NCBI GenBank assembly: GCA_002238855.1
Contig: MPND01000006.1
Coordinates: 1 to 35,942, forward strand
DNA from: SAR202 cluster bacterium bin90
Lineage (GTDB): Bacteria; Chloroflexota; Dehalococcoidia; Lucifugimonadales; JADFKI01
Reading direction: 5' to 3'
DNA: 35,942 nt
Part shown: positions 15,460 to 33,357 of the stretch, one piece after another
Layout of the letters: the number at the start of each line of letters is the position of its first letter
Numbering within the stretch: position 1 is the stretch's first letter
Notes under the pieces: model-generated
What the model was told of the DNA's origin: nothing
Database searches by the model: none
Seen by the model: only the letters and a program-made list of their open reading frames with translations
Translations under genes and position numbers: made by a program

Positions 15460-15528
15460 TGCACCCATCGAACCGCGCTGCCCTTGAGGCGGCGATGCCC
15501 AAGTCAACCGGAAATAAGGTGAACCACT

Positions 15529-16050
15529 ATGACGACCACCGACATTCCACACGAAGTACACGGACCTGAGCTGCCCCGTGGTGGAACGAAGCGCACCCTT
15601 GCCGTTGACTGCGAGCATGTCGAAAAGATGCTCCACAAGGGCACACGCGATCACTTCGTAATCTACTGCGACGAGCCGGAAAGGATGGGCGGCGAGGATG
15701 CCTACCCTCCGCCCCTGACATACATCACCTCCGGTATCGGTTTCTGACTGCTTACTCAGTTGAAGCGGTACGCTACAATGAGAAAAATTGCGATCAACAG
15801 CGCGCGCGTTCATGTCGAGATGGACTACTACCTGTCCGGCTCGGTACTTGCCGGAACGGTGAACAGCGGCGTTACCGAGTTGCGCTCCGAGTTCGAAGTC
15901 AGATCCGACGCAGACGAAGAAGACATCGCCTACGTCATCAGGCTGGCGAAGCGCGGATGCTTCGCCGAGAGGCTTGTGGAAACTGCCGTGCCAATCAAGA
16001 GCACACTCAAACTGAACGGCAAAGAGGCAACGAGCCTCCTGGAGGAGTGA
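15529..16050 (+). CDS. OsmC-like peroxidoxin/thiol reductase, predicted selenoprotein with in-frame TGA (Sec73)
   Basis: Read as one 173-residue protein with TGA at 15745-15747 translated as selenocysteine. The N-terminal half (KGTRDHFVIYCDEPERMGG, then YPPPLTYITSGIGF) stops at the TGA. The same frame continues LLTQLKRYATMRKIAINSARV and runs to TGA 16048, including RGCFAERLV with the second conserved cysteine (C144). In OsmC-type proteins the GFC-LLTQ cysteine is the peroxidatic residue that reduces organic hydroperoxides, so the TGA replaces exactly that residue. A SECIS-like hairpin lies at 15755-15782. AAGGTG sits 7 bases before the ATG. No separate start with a ribosome binding site exists for the second half. 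The NHL gene follows after 3 bases. The alternatives are a pseudogene or a sequencing error. The genome must encode SelA/B/C/D for the Sec reading to hold; none of these is in the window. Confidence 0.85.
15755..15782 (+). promoter_or_regulatory. Bacterial SECIS-like stem-loop downstream of the in-frame UGA
   Basis: CTCA (15755-15758) pairs with TGAG (15779-15782), TTG (15760-15762) with CAA (15776-15778), and AGCG (15764-15767) with CGCT (15771-15774). This gives 11 base pairs with a bulged G at 15759, one A-A mismatch and an apical GTA loop. The loop G lies about 20 bases after the UGA, within the 16-37 spacing of the bacterial SECIS consensus, and the loop has the G-U seen in the E. coli fdhF element. 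The element is inside the coding sequence, as expected for bacteria. Confidence 0.72.
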
Positions 16051-16053
16051 CCG

Positions 16054-16935
16054 ATGACCACGACCACCGTTGGCACAGACAAGCTCACCTATGAACTTGC
16101 CCAGGACTTCCCCAGTCTTCCCGACGGGGAGACCTTCGCCGTAGTCAGCACCGTCGCGACCGATTCGCAGGACAGGCTCTATGTATTCCAGAGGAAGGAC
16201 CCGCCCGTCGTCGTCTTCGACAGGGATGGCAACTACCTGGATGCCTGGGGACACGGCGCCTTCAACTCACCGCACGGCATGAGCATCAGTGACGATGTCG
16301 TATATCTAACCGACCGCGACGATTCGGTAGCGGTGGCATACACGCTGGAGGGCAGGCCCCTCATGGTGCTTGGTGAGCGCGGCGTTCACTCAGACACGGG
16401 CTGCGAGGGTCCCGGCGACCTGGTTCCACGCGCAGCCGGTCCGTTCAACTACCCCACCGAGATAGTGAAGGGGCCATCCGGCAACCTGTATGTCGCGGAC
16501 GGATACCGGAACAGCAGGATTCACAAGTTCACGAGTGACGGCGATCTCATCAAGTCATGGGGAACGCCGGGAAACTCGGCGCCCGGCGAATTCCACCTGC
16601 CACACAGCCTGATGGTAGATGCAGATGAAAAGGTTTATGTGTGCGACCGCACCAACCGCCGCATCCAGATTTTCGACTCAGAAGGCGAGTACATCACGGT
16701 GTGGACCGGCATGGGCGGCCCGAATGACATCGTGCAGGGCACGGACCGGCTGTTCTACATCTGCGAGCAAGAGGCAGACGGCAATCCTCCGTATGTCACA
16801 ATCCGCGACGGCGACGGCGAGGTGCTGGCAAAGTGGGGAGTGCGCCACGCACACGGCATCTGGGTCGACTCGCGCGGCGACATCTATATCGGCCTGACGA
16901 CTTTCCAGAGCGTGGACAAGTATGTCCGCGTGTAG
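16054..16935 (+). CDS. NHL-repeat beta-propeller protein (SMP-30/amidating-lyase-like)
   Basis: A 293-residue protein made of about six NHL-type blades, each with a GPSGNLYVAD or DSEGEY-like turn: DRLYVFQRKDPPVVVFDRDGN, NYPTEIVKGPSGNLYVADGYRNSR, EFHLPHSLMVDADEKVYVCDRTNRR and HAHGIWVDSRGDIYIG are visible in order. This resembles the peptidyl-hydroxyglycine alpha-amidating lyase and SMP-30/gluconolactonase propellers; the H in PHG/PHS/AHG motifs after each blade could ligate a metal. There is no signal peptide, so it is probably cytoplasmic. GGAGGAG in the last OsmC codons drives its ATG, with a 3-base gap, so it is coupled to the OsmC selenoprotein. The substrate is unknown. Confidence 0.82.
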   Translation: MTTTTVGTDKLTYELAQDFPSLPDGETFAVVSTVATDSQDRLYVFQRKDPPVVVFDRDGNYLDAWGHGAFNSPHGMSISDDVVYLTDRDDSVAVAYTLEGRPLMVLGERGVHSDTGCEGPGDLVPRAAGPFNYPTEIVKGPSGNLYVADGYRNSRIHKFTSDGDLIKSWGTPGNSAPGEFHLPHSLMVDADEKVYVCDRTNRRIQIFDSEGEYITVWTGMGGPNDIVQGTDRLFYICEQEADGNPPYVTIRDGDGEVLAKWGVRHAHGIWVDSRGDIYIGLTTFQSVDKYVRV

Positions 16936-20826: not shown

Positions 20827-22575
20827 ATGACTTTACCAAGACAGCAGGACAGTTGCGTAAGCGTACGCAGCGTATTCGAAGTAGAGCGGCGACTGTCCGC
20901 TCCTCTATATCAGCGCCGCTTTTCTTGGGACAAAAGAAACCTCGACGAGTTCTGGGATGATGTCAGACTAGTCGAAGAAGGGCAATCGGAGGCGCTCTTC
21001 CTGGGTGCGATCATCCTGAAGCACGAGGGACCCAGCGACCCTAGCTCGGGCTTACTGGAGGAATTCCTGGTATTGGACGGTCAGCAAAGGATTGCAACCT
21101 TGTTCCTTACGCTCCTCGCTATTGCACTTGAGTGGCAAGAGCACGGGCATGTAAATGAAGCTACAGCTGTCGCAGAGACATTTCTAATGTCCACCCGAAC
21201 TACAACTAAGGGCAAGCCACGTTTTTTCCCCACTATCCCAGATACACCAGAGTTTGTGTCCCTGTGCCGGAAGTTAAACGTCAGCTGGGAAGTGCCATAT
21301 GGCGCGAGATTTAGACCAGGCAAGATGTCTGCAGCGCTTGATCTAGCCCAAGCAGAGGTCCGCTTCCGATGCAATGGAGAAGACGGATTTGATGGTGAGT
21401 CACTGAGAGCTCTTGAAAGAACAATAGTAGATACCATCGAGATTGCAGTCATCAATATTGCCGAGCGACATCAGCCGAACGAAGTGTTCGACCGTCTAAA
21501 CCGTAAAGGCCAAGTATTGACGGTGGGTGACCTTGTGAAGAATGAGATTTTCCGCCGACTTGGCGCGGACGCGGCGACGGCGATTCAATTGTACCGTGAT
21601 CACTGGGAGCCTTTTGAAAATTCGTTTGCAGATAAGCGGCGGCTTGACAACTACTACTATCCGTTCACTCTAACGGTTGATGATAGTGCTACGGTCTCGG
21701 GGGCGTTCCGTGTTCTCAGTAGTCACTGGGATTCGACGATTCGAGATGACAATGAATTGGCTACAACCGCTGAGCTCATCATAGAGGACCTCAGTCAATT
21801 TGTGCCAGAATACAACGCCCTATCGGCGGGAGCCACCTACTCGGCCACTTCAGAGATTGAGGTCTGGGTAGAGCGTCTCGTTCGTATGCCAGTGCCTCGT
21901 GTGACCTACGCGTTTCTCGTTCAGCTTCTTAGGGCTCAACGAATTGGGGTTCTGAACGAATCAGACGCCGCCGAATGTCTTCGTATCGTTGAGTCATTCT
22001 TGGTCAGGAGGGCTTTTTCGGGCCTAGAACCGACCGGACTCCACGCAGTTTTCAAAGGCCTATGGAGTAAAAACGGAGGAAACCCACGTGCACTCGTGTC
22101 AGACCTTCGGACACGAACAATTGATTTCCCGGACGACAACCAACTTCGTCGCGACATTTCGAACAAGCCGTTTTATGGGCGCCGCCTAGACAGCTATGTG
22201 TTAGCCGAGCTAGAAATCTCTGCTCACCGTACGAATCCATTCAGTCGGGAGCAACTCGACGCCATAACAGTAGACCACCTGGCTCCGCAGTCCCTCAGTG
22301 GCGATTGGAAGGACGAATTCCCCGACGATGATGAAGAGCGAAGACAGCTCCTTGATCTTCTTGGTAACCTCGTTCCGCTTAGCCGAGCCGACAACTCAAC
22401 AAAGAATTCTTCTGACTGGCAGGAGGCGCGCAGTCGTCTCAGGAATGAGACGATTTATAGAACCACTAGGGAGGTGTTAGAGGAGTATCCTAAGTGGGGG
22501 CCAAAACAGATCGTTGAGAGGTCAGAGGAATTGGCGGAGCAGGCCGTTCTCCGCTGGCCCCGGCCTGAGCATTAA
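20827..22575 (+). CDS. DUF262/DUF1524 (GmrSD-like) protein, putative type IV restriction or defence factor
   Basis: A 582-residue protein. The N-terminal DUF262 domain has APLYQRRFSW (residues 25-34) and LVLDGQQRIATL (81-91), the ParB-like NTP-binding signature of GmrS. The central part carries FDRLNRKGQVLTVGDLVKNEIF, the usual second DUF262 block. The C-terminal DUF1524 HNH-type nuclease has VDHLAPQ (H484), LGNLVPLSRADN (N514, N523) and STKNSSDW. Fusions of this kind resemble GmrSD and related restriction enzymes that cleave modified phage DNA. It stands alone, with AT-richer codons than its neighbours and gene debris downstream, which fits acquisition by transfer. AAGGAAGG precedes the ATG. 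Activity is an inference from the motifs. Confidence 0.87.
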   Translation: MTLPRQQDSCVSVRSVFEVERRLSAPLYQRRFSWDKRNLDEFWDDVRLVEEGQSEALFLGAIILKHEGPSDPSSGLLEEFLVLDGQQRIATLFLTLLAIALEWQEHGHVNEATAVAETFLMSTRTTTKGKPRFFPTIPDTPEFVSLCRKLNVSWEVPYGARFRPGKMSAALDLAQAEVRFRCNGEDGFDGESLRALERTIVDTIEIAVINIAERHQPNEVFDRLNRKGQVLTVGDLVKNEIFRRLGADAATAIQLYRDHWEPFENSFADKRRLDNYYYPFTLTVDDSATVSGAFRVLSSHWDSTIRDDNELATTAELIIEDLSQFVPEYNALSAGATYSATSEIEVWVERLVRMPVPRVTYAFLVQLLRAQRIGVLNESDAAECLRIVESFLVRRAFSGLEPTGLHAVFKGLWSKNGGNPRALVSDLRTRTIDFPDDNQLRRDISNKPFYGRRLDSYVLAELEISAHRTNPFSREQLDAITVDHLAPQSLSGDWKDEFPDDDEERRQLLDLLGNLVPLSRADNSTKNSSDWQEARSRLRNETIYRTTREVLEEYPKWGPKQIVERSEELAEQAVLRWPRPEH

Positions 22576-25884: not shown

Positions 25885-25909
25885 CCTCCGATTTCCGTGA
25901 CACATGTCC

Positions 25910-26122: not shown

Positions 26123-27775
26123 TTGGAACTCCACGAGTCCCTCTTCGCCATAGGTGCGATGATTGTAATCGCCAAGCTGCTTGAAGGCATCTTTAAGCGC
26201 TATGGCCTCAACTCCATCATCGCCTACGTTGCGGCAGGCATCCTACTCGGTCCGGTGACCGGCATCGTCGAGACATCCAAAGAGATCGAGTTCATCCTCA
26301 GCATCGGCATCTTCATTTTCTTCTTCCTCATCGGCCTGGAGGAGTTAGACATAGGCGGCTTTCTGTCTGCCATGCGGGGACGCCTGTTCTTCGCATCCCT
26401 GCTCTGCGTTGCCATATCGCTGCTCGTTTCGCTTGCAGTCACCACAGATACCTTCTTTGAACTAGGACTGAATCTCAGTTTCACCGAGGCGCTTGCGCTG
26501 GCAGGCATCCTCTCCCTGTCAAGCCTCGGCGTCGTCGCCAAGGTCCTGGTTGACGAGGGGCGGCTCAGGGAAACGGTGGGGGTGCAGATGTTCACCGCCG
26601 TGATCATCGCGGAACTCATCGCGCTGTTCGTCGTTGGATTCGCCATCAGCGAACACGGCGGCGCTGAAGCAGACCTCCACGAGACAGATCTGACCAGCGT
26701 GGCGATAGTCATAGGCGAGATTCTCCTGTTCGCTACTGCAACCTGGTTCGTCTCCGCCACAATCCTCCCCAAGCTCATCGTGCTGTTGCATCGCGTTCTG
26801 GATGTACCGCACCTGTCCTTCGGTCTGCTGCTGGGTGGGCTTTTCCTTGTGGTCGTGGGGGCGGAGGGCGCAGGCCTTCACGGTTCGCTCGGCGCGCTGC
26901 TGTTCGGCGCCGCACTCTCCACGCTGCCCTACCAGGTGCGACGCGACCTTATGCCGGGGCTGCGGGGATCGGCAGAAGGTCTATTCGTCCCCCTGTTCTT
27001 TGCCTCCGCCGGTCTGAACCTGACCTTCGATTTCCTCTCGCTTCCGGTCGCGACAATACTGCTGTTGGTCTTTGTTCCCCTCGCCGGCAAATTCCTCGCG
27101 GCTTTCGCCGGTGCATATATAACTCGACTGGACGCTCCACTTGCAGTAGCAGCCGGCCTTATGGCGAAGGGCGTGGCTGAGATCGCGCTGCTTCTCGTAC
27201 TGGTGCATTCGGGCGCGATCGGTACGGGAGTATTCTCCCTGCTTGTGCTCGTGATGTTCGCCTACATCCTGCTCACACCGATCGGCATCACATTCGCATT
27301 GAGACGGTCAGACCAGAGAGAAGGAATCTACGTCAACGGAAGCAGTATCCCGCCCTCATTGGTTCGCTTCGGGCTGGAAGGCATTAGGGTTAGGGACGTG
27401 CTCGACACTTCCCGCAGCCATCCTGAGCAGTCGGTAACGGTGCAGAATTTCGTGGACAACTGGCTGCTAACCGGACAGCAGGAATACATCGTAGTCAACC
27501 AGGGAGAGTTCGCGGGCATAGTATCAGTGCCCCTGCTGCGCTACCTCCCCCACACCGAATGGGCAAGCACCACGCTCGGTAGTATAGCGCGGGAGCTTGA
27601 AGAGCCGCGCGCTTCTTCAGACGACTATGTGGAGGATGTTCTGCAGCGCATGACAGATCACTCGATCTCAGTGCTGCCGGTGATCAATCCGGAGACGGAC
27701 GAGTTCATAGGCTCCATTGCCAGCTCTGAAATCGTGGAAATGATCGTTCTGACCGCACAGGGCCACGAAGTATAA
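26123..27775 (+). CDS. Cation:proton antiporter (CPA2/Kef-like) with C-terminal CBS pair, first of two paralogues
   Basis: Start at TTG 26123, 9 bases after a strong AGGAGGT; the protein has 550 residues. About twelve membrane segments span residues 5-390, with the CPA2 blocks GLNSIIAYVAAGILLGPVTG, FFLIGLEELDI (71-77) and LSLSSLGVVAKVLVDEGRLR. Where KefC-type proteins carry Gln-Asp in the transport helix, this one reads IIAELIALF, with E164 as the likely acidic ion-binding residue. The cytoplasmic tail (about 410-550) contains two CBS-like motifs (QEYIVVNQGEFAGIVSV and SISVLPVINPETDEFIGSIASSEIV), which commonly sense nucleotides. It probably exchanges Na+ or K+ for H+; the ion is not determinable. 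A 550-residue paralogue follows downstream. Confidence 0.88.
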   Translation: MELHESLFAIGAMIVIAKLLEGIFKRYGLNSIIAYVAAGILLGPVTGIVETSKEIEFILSIGIFIFFFLIGLEELDIGGFLSAMRGRLFFASLLCVAISLLVSLAVTTDTFFELGLNLSFTEALALAGILSLSSLGVVAKVLVDEGRLRETVGVQMFTAVIIAELIALFVVGFAISEHGGAEADLHETDLTSVAIVIGEILLFATATWFVSATILPKLIVLLHRVLDVPHLSFGLLLGGLFLVVVGAEGAGLHGSLGALLFGAALSTLPYQVRRDLMPGLRGSAEGLFVPLFFASAGLNLTFDFLSLPVATILLLVFVPLAGKFLAAFAGAYITRLDAPLAVAAGLMAKGVAEIALLLVLVHSGAIGTGVFSLLVLVMFAYILLTPIGITFALRRSDQREGIYVNGSSIPPSLVRFGLEGIRVRDVLDTSRSHPEQSVTVQNFVDNWLLTGQQEYIVVNQGEFAGIVSVPLLRYLPHTEWASTTLGSIARELEEPRASSDDYVEDVLQRMTDHSISVLPVINPETDEFIGSIASSEIVEMIVLTAQGHEV

Positions 27776-27928: not shown

Positions 27929-28018
27929 CTGCACGCACTTGCAATCCGTAACCGTTCGGTGCTCCAACATTCGAGCGACGCACAATCGTTTGGTAGCTCT
28001 CGGGGAGGGTGCTTCGAC

Positions 28019-29671
28019 TTGGACCTTCAGGGATCGCTCCTTGCCTTAGGCCTCATGATTGTTGTGGCCAAGCTGCTCGAAGGAATCTTCAAGCGCTTCG
28101 GCCTAAACTCCATCATCGCCTACGCCATCACGGGGGTCTTTCTCGGCCCCGTGACCGGGCTGATAGACCCCGGAATCGAAATTGAGATTGTGCTGAGCAT
28201 CGGCATCTTCATATTCTTCTTCCTCATAGGACTTGAGGAGTTGGATATTCGAGGGTTCCTGTCAGCCATTCGGGGCCGCCTGTTCATTGCCGCCGTGCTC
28301 TGCGTGACCATATCGCTGCTGGTCTCCTTAGCAGTCACCAGCGACTTCCTCTTCGATCTGGGACTTGACCTCAACTTCACCGAATCGCTTGCATTGGCAG
28401 GAGTGTTATCGCTTTCGAGCCTGGGCGTCGTCGCTAAGGTCCTGATAGACGAAGGCCGCCTCAGGGAAGCGGTGGGCGTCCAGATTTTCACTGCCGTGGT
28501 AATCGCCGAACTCCTCGCGCTCTTCGTCGTAGGCTTCGCAATAAGCGAGCACTTCTATGCGGGAGAAGACGGCGGTCACGGCCCAAATCCGCTCAGCGTC
28601 GCGATCCTCATCGGTCAGATCCTCGGATTCACCGTCGCGACATGGTTTGTCTCCACAAGAATTCTCCCCAAAGTGATCGTCCTGCTGCATCGCTTTCTGC
28701 AAGTGCCGCAGCTCTCCTTCGGACTGCTGCTGGGTGGCCTGTTCCTAGTTGTCGTAGCAGCAGAAGAGGTCGGCTTGCACGGCTCGCTCGGCGCACTCCT
28801 CTTCGGCGCTGCGCTCTCGATGCTCCCCTACCAGGTCCGCCGCGACATAATGCCGGGGCTGCGCAGCACGGCGGAGGGTCTGTTCGTTCCCCTGTTCTTC
28901 GCGTCTGCCGGCCTGCACCTTACCCTCGATTTCCTGACTCTACCGCCCCAGACGATTGCGGCGCTCATATTCGTTCCGCTGGCAGGCAAGTTTGCGGCGG
29001 CATTCATCAGCGCATACATGACCCGGCTCGAATCTCCCTTTGCGATGGCAACGGGTCTGATGGCAAAGGGCGTGGCCGAAATCGCTCTTCTTATTCTCCT
29101 GCTGCACACCGGCGCAATCAGCGAGGGAATCTTTTCGCTGATGCTGCTGATCATGTTTGGCTACATTCTGCTGACGCCGATGGGCATGATCTACGCACTG
29201 CGTAAACTGAGGCACGCAAATGTCGCCAGCAGCGATCAGCCCGTGCCGCCGTCACTCGTGCGCTTTGCCCTGGACGGCGTGCGGGTGCGGGATGTCCTGG
29301 ACACCTCCCGAAGCCACCCCGAGCAGTCGCTGACCGTCAGAGCCTTCACTGATAACTGGCTGGTGCCGGAACAGCACGACTATGTTATCGAGGACAATGG
29401 CAGGTTCGCGGGCATAGTGTCTGTGGGCATGCTCCGCTACCTGCCGCATAGCGACTGGGATCACACCACGCTCGGCAGAGTTACTCGACGAATTGAGACA
29501 TCTCACGCCTACTCGGACGAATTCGTTGAGGATGTGTTGCAGAGGATGACGGAAAACTCTACAACCGTGTTGCCCGTCATAGATTCCGAGACGCGCGAAT
29601 TCATCGGCTCTATCTCCAGCCACGAAGTTGTGGAAATGATAGTCCTGACCGCGCAGGGACACGAAATCTAG
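28019..29671 (+). CDS. Cation:proton antiporter (CPA2/Kef-like) with C-terminal CBS pair, second paralogue
   Basis: Start set at TTG 28019, 8 bases after GGAGGGT, by alignment with the first paralogue (LDLQGSLLALGLMIVVAKLLEGIF in pattern against MELHESLFAIGAMIVIAKLLEGIF); an upstream in-frame start at 27959 adds 20 residues with no match. Both copies then have exactly 550 residues and are clearly homologous along the whole length, with most positions identical. It keeps GLEELDI, LSLSSLGVVAKVLIDEGRLR and the acidic residue E164. The most divergent parts are the loop at about 178-190 (EHFYAGEDGGHGPNP) and the linker before the CBS pair. Same predicted role; the pair may differ in ion, pH range or ligand of the CBS tail. 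Confidence 0.88.
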   Translation: MDLQGSLLALGLMIVVAKLLEGIFKRFGLNSIIAYAITGVFLGPVTGLIDPGIEIEIVLSIGIFIFFFLIGLEELDIRGFLSAIRGRLFIAAVLCVTISLLVSLAVTSDFLFDLGLDLNFTESLALAGVLSLSSLGVVAKVLIDEGRLREAVGVQIFTAVVIAELLALFVVGFAISEHFYAGEDGGHGPNPLSVAILIGQILGFTVATWFVSTRILPKVIVLLHRFLQVPQLSFGLLLGGLFLVVVAAEEVGLHGSLGALLFGAALSMLPYQVRRDIMPGLRSTAEGLFVPLFFASAGLHLTLDFLTLPPQTIAALIFVPLAGKFAAAFISAYMTRLESPFAMATGLMAKGVAEIALLILLLHTGAISEGIFSLMLLIMFGYILLTPMGMIYALRKLRHANVASSDQPVPPSLVRFALDGVRVRDVLDTSRSHPEQSLTVRAFTDNWLVPEQHDYVIEDNGRFAGIVSVGMLRYLPHSDWDHTTLGRVTRRIETSHAYSDEFVEDVLQRMTENSTTVLPVIDSETREFIGSISSHEVVEMIVLTAQGHEI

Positions 29672-30613: not shown

Positions 30614-31666
30614 TCAGCCGCTCACCATCGGATACACATGATAGCCACGCTGCAGGTCCAGCGGAATCTTGTCGCCGGTCCAGCTGTCCCCGCCGTCGGT
30701 GCTGGCAAAGAAGTGTCCATAGTTCGTCGTGCAGAACACATTGCTCGGCGCTCTGGGATCTATCGCGATCTGGAACATCCGCCCCGGAGGTTCATCGCCG
30801 ATGTCCAGCCGTTCCCAGTTTTCGCCGGTATCGGTGCTGCGGAACAGCGCACCCGCCTCCTGAGTGCCCGATGGCGCGCCGCCACCGCCCGCACCAGCCG
30901 CGAGGTATATTGTCTGCGGATCATCCGGAGAGACCAGCAATCCGCGGCAGTATGACCCGCCCGGGAACATCTCGCCGAATCGGATATGCTCCCAGTTGCG
31001 CCCCTTGTTACGGCTGCGGAACATCGCCACCTGCGCGATAATGAACACCGTGCCCGGAGCAGCAGCGCTCACCTGAACGCCGTGCAGGTCAACAGTGTGG
31101 TTGTCGCGGTAAAGCCCGTCCGTCAGCGAGTCCCAGGAGTCGCCGCCGTTCCTGCTCGCGATCAGACCACCGACTTCGATCGCCCCATAGATGTCGTCCG
31201 GCTCCGATGGATCGGCGCACAGCCCGATTACGCGCTTGCCCAGCGGCGGCATGTAAGTCGTAACATCCGGGTATTTTACGCGGCTCGTATCCATCTTCTG
31301 CCATGTCGCGCCGCCATCCTCTGAGCGAGCTATTCCGCACGGCTCGTACCCCGCGTACACAACATCAGGATTGCCCGGCCGGAACGCAAGCGACCAGACA
31401 TCGGCTTTCGGAGCGTCCAACGCCTCCCAGTGTTCACCACGGTCGTCGCTGCGATACGGCCCGTCCTGCGTCCCCGCGAATATCACCGCCGGGTTGTCCG
31501 GATGAATCGCCAGTGCGCGCACCTGCGGATTCTCCGGCAGCCCTTTCGCAATAGGCTGCCACTCCGAGTCACCCAGAGTGCGCCGAATCATACCGCCCTG
31601 CCCGACGAAATCGCCCTCACCGGCAATCCCGACATAGATGTGTGTCTCGTGTCCGTTGGTAGTCAT
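30614..31666 (-). CDS. Asp-box (BNR/sialidase-like) beta-propeller protein
   Basis: A 350-residue protein with six Asp-box repeats: SDDRGEHW, SEDGGATW, SRNGGDSW, SRNKGRNW, STDTGENW and STDGGDSW, each at the end of a propeller blade starting with VIFAGTQDG or IYLAAGAGG-like strands. This is the sialidase/VPS10/photosystem-assembly-factor type of propeller. No catalytic Arg triad of sialidases and no signal peptide are visible, so a binding or unknown enzymatic role is more likely. Its ATG overlaps the DUF262 stop in ATGA, with GGAGG inside the DUF262 gene, so it is translationally coupled to that gene. Confidence 0.85.
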   Translation of the reverse strand: MTTNGHETHIYVGIAGEGDFVGQGGMIRRTLGDSEWQPIAKGLPENPQVRALAIHPDNPAVIFAGTQDGPYRSDDRGEHWEALDAPKADVWSLAFRPGNPDVVYAGYEPCGIARSEDGGATWQKMDTSRVKYPDVTTYMPPLGKRVIGLCADPSEPDDIYGAIEVGGLIASRNGGDSWDSLTDGLYRDNHTVDLHGVQVSAAAPGTVFIIAQVAMFRSRNKGRNWEHIRFGEMFPGGSYCRGLLVSPDDPQTIYLAAGAGGGGAPSGTQEAGALFRSTDTGENWERLDIGDEPPGRMFQIAIDPRAPSNVFCTTNYGHFFASTDGGDSWTGDKIPLDLQRGYHVYPMVSG

Positions 31667-33357
31667 CGGTGCGCCTCCTTATTTCTCACGACCCATTTGC
31701 AGAGTTCCTGCATAGCGTCATGAATGAGTTCTGCACGCTTTTCGAGGAAAGCGTCATAGTTGCCAGAGATCATTTCGTCGAATGGAATGATATGGCTTTC
31801 CAAAAGACGCCTGATTTCGGCTTCATCTGGATCGCTGTCTCGTCGTCGCTCAGTGAGGTATCGTTCAGGCTCCTTATCTGAAATCGCTCGGTTTGTGCGC
31901 CAAGTCACCAATGCACAATTTAGTGCGGTATAAATTTTGTCGCTGGGTATGTTCGGATATTGTCGCTCTAAGTGTGCAACAGGAAATAGGTGATGGTATT
32001 CACGCTGCGAAAGGTTGTCATGCCTAGCGGTGCTACCATCCGCTAAGTCTAACCCCTTCGCTTTCAAGGAGAGCGCGAGAATGGCGCGAGCTAATCGGTC
32101 TTTCTTATTTGGCCATCCTGCTTCTACGAGCTCAGTGGCTTGTGGGAGAGATTCATGGAAGATAATTGGCTCCGATGCCGTTGAGTCGGACAGGTAAGTT
32201 TTCAATTCGTTGTAATCCACTAAAGAGCGTGTAGCAGTGGTTCTTTCGTATCTCTTGGTGAAGAACGCTCGCCAAAGATACTTCCTGAGTGTAGATCGAG
32301 CGTTACCTTCTGCGTAGAGTCCCTCAGGCGCTTCTGCCCAAAGAGCTACCAATACTGGTATGACGACGTCCGTAGGTAGCCTCCGTTCATCGAGGATGCG
32401 TTCGTCTTCAAGGAAGACCACTGAGCGTTCCACGCCTCTGAGATACTTATCCCAATTTTCTACAAGGCGATTTCCAAAGTCCCTCGACAAGTAAGTTGCA
32501 TTTGAAGGGACTCGTCCTTGAAGTAAGGCACTGGCAGCCAAAATCAGGCTTTCAGGCTCGTAGTACCGTGCTATGGCGGGGCATACTTCCTTGGTTTCGG
32601 CGACGAGGTCGTGTAAGGATTCGCCCGCACCCGCTTCGACCTGTGCAACCACAATGTCATAAGCCGATAGAGGTGTTGCCGAAGTGTTCGTTCTTATGAA
32701 CACATCAAGGGCGACGTCTCTCTTGGTTTGTACGGGAAGAGACAGAAAGGGAATATTGAAACTCGAGATTTGATTCCGTACGTTGCTTACAGTCCTATCG
32801 ACTTCCCTCTGCGTCCTTGAGTCTTTAATGGCCTCTTCTAACCATTCGTCATAAACTTGCTGTGCTTCATCTCCAGGTGCAAACAGATTTAACGGAATCG
32901 CCCGTCTCTCCCACTGACCATCTGGATTGTCCGCCCAAAGGGGCATTCGCTGATTGTCTTGCCGTCGCCAATAGCGAGAAACAGAATCAACATAGTACGG
33001 CAAATCTGACTCTTCATCTTCTTGCAAATAGATGAAGTACGTCCTGTCGGGATAGTCATTGTTAAGTCCTCTCCAGATGGCCGTAATGCGTTGCTGCCCA
33101 TCCAGCAGATGCTCCGTAACACGCTCGCCATCTGGGGGAGCACCAACTACTGATCGCGATATGAAGGGCTCTTCGCCGCCTATGTCGAGGACGAGCAAGG
33201 CGCCACACGGTAGATCTTGGAGAATAGTGTTGAATAACTGGGTTACTTGCGAATGACTCCAAGCCTGAAATCTCTGGAACCGCGGTAACACGGTCTGGCG
33301 CGTGCGAATTCGCGTCATCCAGTCCGACAGCCGCCTGTTGCGAGCTTCTGAGGGCAT
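31663..33357 (-). CDS. Second DUF262 (GmrSD-like) protein with HNH-type C-terminus
   Basis: A 564-residue protein. The DUF262 signature appears as LPRFQRFQAW (24-33) and HLLDGQQRITAIW (83-95), with FIRTNTSATPLSAYDIV as the second block. The C-terminal nuclease-like region reads YHHLFPVAHLE (H455, H456) and LNCALVTWRTNRAISDK (N480, N489), matching the HNH layout of the family. It is only distantly related to the DUF262 protein at 20827-22575 and belongs to another subgroup. AAGGAG is 6 bases before the ATG. Codons are AT-richer than those of the flanking metabolic genes. It lies beside a VapBC-type pair, which fits a small defence cluster; restriction activity is inferred. Confidence 0.85.
   Translation of the reverse strand: MPSEARNRRLSDWMTRIRTRQTVLPRFQRFQAWSHSQVTQLFNTILQDLPCGALLVLDIGGEEPFISRSVVGAPPDGERVTEHLLDGQQRITAIWRGLNNDYPDRTYFIYLQEDEESDLPYYVDSVSRYWRRQDNQRMPLWADNPDGQWERRAIPLNLFAPGDEAQQVYDEWLEEAIKDSRTQREVDRTVSNVRNQISSFNIPFLSLPVQTKRDVALDVFIRTNTSATPLSAYDIVVAQVEAGAGESLHDLVAETKEVCPAIARYYEPESLILAASALLQGRVPSNATYLSRDFGNRLVENWDKYLRGVERSVVFLEDERILDERRLPTDVVIPVLVALWAEAPEGLYAEGNARSTLRKYLWRAFFTKRYERTTATRSLVDYNELKTYLSDSTASEPIIFHESLPQATELVEAGWPNKKDRLARAILALSLKAKGLDLADGSTARHDNLSQREYHHLFPVAHLERQYPNIPSDKIYTALNCALVTWRTNRAISDKEPERYLTERRRDSDPDEAEIRRLLESHIIPFDEMISGNYDAFLEKRAELIHDAMQELCKWVVRNKEAHR

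Follow-up and report, generated by a model that had tools for sequence, protein, structure and literature searches.

Selenoproteins of the OsmC family with a UxxT motif have been described from marine metagenomes. In the accessible parts of the papers concerned, three such sequences are listed in the Sargasso Sea survey of 2005 (PMC1088965) and five in the Global Ocean Sampling survey (PMC2398784), and the group is included in reviews of 2022 and 2026 (PMC9312934, PMC13188914). Neither Chloroflexi nor SAR202 is mentioned in the accessible text of PMC2398784. A corresponding protein family is held by NCBIfam (NF041052, OsmC_like_Se, 'OsmC-related (seleno)protein'). Here a contig of the SAR202 cluster bacterium bin90 (MPND01000006.1, positions 1 to 35,942 of the forward strand; this whole stretch of 35,942 nucleotides is referred to as the window) is compared with these proteins. 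Positions 15529–16050 are best read as one OsmC-family gene in which codon 73, a UGA, is predicted from sequence, and very probably so, to be decoded as selenocysteine (Sec) by means of the hairpin that follows it. The gene and its elements are:

15516..15521, + strand: Shine-Dalgarno-like AAGGTG ahead of the first ATG (sequence)
15529..16050, + strand: predicted gene of an OsmC-like selenoprotein with one internal UGA read through; 173 residues plus stop; PF02566 49.9 bits, NF041052 165.1 bits
15745..15747, + strand: UGA in frame at codon 73, predicted to encode Sec; motif ULLT (UxxT); all rows of the alignment have TGA or Cys at this column
15761..15777, + strand: putative bacterial Sec insertion sequence (SECIS)-like hairpin; arms 15761–15766 and 15772–15777, loop GGUAC, with a single A.A mismatch in this copy
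15958..15960, + strand: codon of C144, the second of the conserved Cys residues and predicted to be the resolving one; invariant in an alignment of 34 proteins (A2)

The window protein matches NF041052 with residues 25–164, above the cut-off of 95 bits. No tested difference separates it from this family; lineage, N-terminus and neighbouring genes vary. The selenoproteins of the surveys belong to the same family (COG1765 / pfam02566 in the accessible tables) and ULLT fits their UxxT motif; the comparison covers family and motif. Because of the NF041052 match and the published UxxT OsmC selenoproteins, the window gene is a further case of an already described family and is not new in kind. An earlier inspection of the window (the original prediction) had noted that such proteins were proposed from marine surveys, and the paper of 2005 bears this out. 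NF041052 is matched at E 0.001 in 237 of 400 genomes sampled from the phylum, and 27 of them, including the source genome, exceed the cut-off. The match contains one TGA in 26 of these 27 genomes and none in the remaining one. Thus, the TGA form is not the curiosity of a single metagenome. Listed rows that fall short of the cut-off are mostly free of stops.

Translation of 15529–16050 gives 72 residues ending in GIGF, a stop, 100 residues beginning with LLTQ and the terminal stop (16048–16050). Both stops are TGA. The original prediction of two halves in the same frame, parted by a single TGA between GIGF and LLTQ, agrees with this translation, and its coordinates are right. PF02566 (OsmC) scores 33.1 bits on the second half alone (cut-off 27.5), compared with 49.9 bits on the read-through frame. 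The AAGG is located 9 bases 5' of the first ATG. Both strands of the window were scanned for broken frames (ATG or GTG start, one TGA, at least 20 amino acids before and at least 40 after it, mostly outside the list of larger open reading frames). Two places were found, the OsmC gene and one frame of 26+41 amino acids at 25898.

A scan of related loci (one genome per GTDB species) yielded 17 loci whose titles all name Dehalococcoidia, Chloroflexi or SAR202. Every one of them has TGA at the same codon, which is more than expected by chance, and the frame is otherwise open in 16. The seventeenth locus (L044) keeps the TGA too, although relative to L035 it has two gaps, of one and 12 bases. The TGA is also present at this column in 18 fetched relatives (L046–L063) with identities down to 29%. 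A match to the OsmC gene is found in 61 of 393 genomes sampled from the class. Among the matching rows with at least 56 bits (n=22, including the window's own), 20 have one TGA and two have none; rows below 56 bits are mostly free of stops, and a few contain one TGA, TAA or TAG. Database searches gave 24 proteins, nine of which are full-length. All nine have Cys at the column of residue 73 (eight in A2, plus P0022).

The A2 alignment comprises 26 UGA and 8 Cys rows. Invariant in it are the residue-73 column (UGA or Cys), C144, D48, E49, G54, P60, G104, S105, A140, N163 and G164, and T76, the T of UxxT, is present in at least 90% of the 34 rows. The tree requires two changes between Sec and Cys, and a single Cys clade is not rejected (p-AU 0.325). 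Pairwise ratios of nonsynonymous to synonymous substitution (dN/dS) were calculated for 19 genes (171 pairs); they are computable for 52 pairs before and 64 pairs after the UGA, the others being saturated at synonymous sites. The median is 0.09 before the UGA and 0.17 after it. For the window gene and L028–L032 the values are 0.05–0.09 and 0.08–0.20, respectively. As dN/dS is well under 1 after the UGA, the downstream half is selected as protein.

The hairpin was analyzed in a gap-free alignment of the 51 bases from the UGA in 35 genes. Pairing was counted for a six-pair stem 14–30 bases past the UGA, with each row taking the better of two adjacent registers. The stem is paired in 191 of 210 cells, and other pairs of adjacent registers give at most 160. 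Redrawing the codons under the same proteins (n=2000) results in a mean of 109 and a maximum of 127 paired cells. The arms covary (UGAAGC/GCUUCA, UCGCUC/GAGCGA, UGUCCA/UGGACA and UCGGCA/UGCCGA). The loop starts with GG in 34 of 35 rows, compared with a redraw maximum of 22. Furthermore, where the loop encodes Arg (34 rows), the codon always ends in GG, compared with 63 of 254 Arg codons elsewhere in the same genes. With one fixed register for all rows, 70.6% of the cells are paired (shuffled mean 56.1) and the covariation is 0.298; none of 500 shuffles is as high in either measure. A single stem register was set aside at this 70.6%; the rows use two registers offset by one base. Judged from these alignments, the predicted hairpin is conserved beyond the needs of the protein. 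The predicted fold of the window copy lies within published constraints for bacterial SECIS elements (accessible part of PMC13188914), with a one-mismatch stem, a G-initial loop and a distance of 20 nt from the UGA.

The source genome (4.6 Mb, 213 contigs, 94.94% complete, 6.33% contaminated) encodes tRNA-Sec (contig C44, 63.8 bits; anticodon tca according to ARAGORN), SelB (C10, 342.3 bits with neighbours in frame), SelA (C136, 547.4 bits) and SelD (C49, 392.6 bits). The SelD gene itself contains one in-frame TGA (L020:1531, CAG-TGA-ASKFSP) and is presumably of the known Sec-containing kind. This independently points to decoding of UGA as Sec in the source genome. At the level of sequence, the selenoprotein reading of the original prediction is therefore well supported by the machinery (tRNA-Sec(UCA), SelA, SelB and SelD in the same genome), by a column that is TGA or Cys in every aligned row and by purifying selection on both halves. 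The main objection foreseen there, a genome lacking Sec machinery, does not apply. The absence of random frameshifts and stops elsewhere in the gene holds for 16 of the 17 related loci, L044 having further indels. Beyond the original prediction, the family is already named in NCBIfam, a SECIS-like hairpin is measurable and the operon is common to only one of the 17 loci.

Several observations weigh against decoding of the UGA as Sec. The sel genes and the window gene are on different contigs, and the genome is a bin with the contamination given above. Of 31 genomes that carry the gene, 29 have SelA over the cut-off, the exceptions being G357, where the match is partial, and G398, where all matches are weak; among 20 genomes without a match to the gene the figure is 18. 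Because SelA exceeds the cut-off in 47 of these 51 related genomes, co-occurrence is uninformative as a test. The codon redraws ignore the relatedness among rows. In the fixed register, two of five measures, namely pairs in which both sides change and further pair types, are no higher than in the shuffles. Sliding this register by -1 gives a covariation of 0.292 compared with 0.298, as expected from the second register. By itself, the hairpin of the window gene is modest, with one mismatch, a minimum free energy (MFE) of -9.3 and a z-score of -1.68 (11 of 200 shuffles fold as well); it is matched by 17 of 2000 codon draws in pairing and by 20 of 500 in stability. Finally, the energy limit for bacterial SECIS elements (MFE of -7.5 or lower) is reached by 27 of 35 rows.

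If the UGA were a true stop, two separate proteins would be made and the second half would start anew at TTG 15760 or ATG 15778. Both halves are open, and the other 15 of the 24 database proteins have 95–103 residues, which fits second halves (three were inspected and are second halves), so gene callers do predict such starts. However, no clear Shine-Dalgarno sequence is located upstream of these or later in-frame starts when judged by eye, as the original prediction had claimed. The stretch between the UGA and ATG 15778 (LLTQLKRYA) is largely conserved, the Cys homologues are single proteins, the stop is always TGA in the rows checked and the hairpin is kept at the codon level. Two separate proteins are thus very improbable. 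Equally little credit can be given to a UGA that is read as an ordinary amino acid in another genetic code, or to Sec machinery that inserts Cys. The Cys at residue 73 of the homologues would suit both variants, but UGA also terminates the window gene and the genes of several relatives, and the hairpin and SelB would be needless if the code had changed; insertion of Cys is compatible with the sequence. A decaying pseudogene or a sequencing error, as the gaps of L044 in one of 17 relatives might suggest, is next to inconceivable with a TGA shared by 17 of 17 loci from different assemblies, no other internal stop in 16 of them and dN/dS well under 1 on either side of the UGA.

With Sec at codon 73 as the preferred reading, SelB carrying Sec-tRNA would bind the hairpin and Sec would be inserted at the UGA. 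By analogy to the chemistry of Ohr/OsmC proteins, U73 would lie in the central helix of the fold, and its selenolate may attack an organic hydroperoxide or another electrophile. C144 would then close a selenenylsulfide with U73, which a cellular dithiol would reduce.

The window protein shares the fold and the two conserved redox positions with Ohr/OsmC peroxidases (Xylella Ohr; accessible part of PMC5962072). In contrast to these, its first Cys is replaced by UGA. The resolving Cys is present as C144 in all 34 rows, so the second Cys is intact as originally described. The active site of Xylella Ohr includes Glu51 and Arg19 (accessible part of PMC5962072). Ten residues before U73 the window protein has Leu63, which is invariant in the 21 rows of a further alignment (A3), whereas Ohr (1n2f) has Glu there, as counted by offset and not by structural alignment. 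By this offset count the active-site Glu of Ohr is absent from the window protein. The original prediction placed the UGA at the peroxidatic Cys. It does occupy the first conserved Cys position of OsmC proteins, but with Leu in the place of the Ohr Glu it can be termed peroxidatic by position only. The closest solved sequence is 3cje (OsmC-like, Jannaschia, jann_2040; E 8.7e-17 with profile A3). Unlike the window protein it is a Cys form, and both of its redox positions are Cys when aligned.

A second OsmC-like gene (L027) is present on contig C78 of the source genome:

G000:C78:24092-27361, TGA at 1525–1527, - strand: OsmC-like gene with UGA at the C-terminal (resolving) Cys; SACAVNM; HWKRH-TGA-PIYGTV

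The first Cys of L027 is normal (SACAVNM). In the alignments, its TGA falls on the second Cys of P. aeruginosa Ohr, although that match is weak (E 0.17), and on the Cys of full-length relatives (RCPLYG). Six further genes share this TGA, L083–L086 from the 13 genomes behind named loci and L076 and L078 from the class sample, in which 8 of 393 genomes are matched and L077 is a Cys form. A hairpin with six of six pairs is found in all seven genes, in four of them as GGUUGC-GGUC-GCAACC. In total, 42 of 42 cells are paired; in 2000 codon draws (pooled codon use) the mean is 33.3 and the maximum 39. Folding the L027 hairpin by itself gives an unremarkable z-score of -0.69. Among the 120 listed of 451 database homologues, 101 end just before the TGA position and 19 continue with Cys. 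L027 scores 20.1 bits with NF041052 and thus remains below its cut-off. No description of this type was found in the literature consulted, where OsmC occurs only as UxxT in the accessible parts; papers beyond it may differ. The main text of the deep-Sep paper does not mention OsmC. From its sequence, L027 likely carries Sec at the resolving, C-terminal position. There is a good probability that one genome encodes two OsmC-fold selenoproteins with Sec at opposite ends of the relay (attacking in the window gene, resolving in L027), and that the second type is a widespread undescribed family, databased as stubs of ~119 residues that end before the Sec.

Downstream of the window gene, the following features are present:

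16041..16045, + strand: GGAGG within the 3' end of the OsmC gene, Shine-Dalgarno-like for the next gene (sequence)
16054..16935, + strand: NHL-repeat (beta-propeller) protein gene, likely co-transcribed; PF01436 66.7 bits; same order in L029, neighbour in L031
16966..17634, + strand: third gene of the same-strand run; order common to L029; no Pfam or NCBIfam match

The NHL gene starts 3 bases past the stop of the OsmC gene, the spacing that had been noted originally. Among the 17 loci, some of which are on short contigs, only L029 repeats the order OsmC-NHL-third gene, and the NHL gene alone is also found in L031. A gene resembling carB (carbamoyl-phosphate synthase large chain) is present in 10 of the 17 loci (L033–L036, L038–L041, L043 and L044), in most of them directly upstream of the OsmC gene. 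It was assigned by clustering, with Pfam run on L035 and L043. As the gene order is found only in L029 and the carB-like gene in 10 of 17 loci, the context does not give the function. Elsewhere in the window, two similar membrane-protein reading frames are arranged in tandem (26123–27775 and 27959–29671) and appear cation/proton antiporter-like by eye. The reading frames at 20827–22575 and 31663–33357 resemble, by eye, what we take to be DUF262-type proteins.

Gene callers split genes of this kind, as the three second-half records illustrate. Accordingly, a redox protein of Dehalococcoidia/SAR202-type bacteria can be mis-recorded. With the window gene and L027 together, the contribution of selenium could be tested within one fold for the attacking as well as the resolving position.
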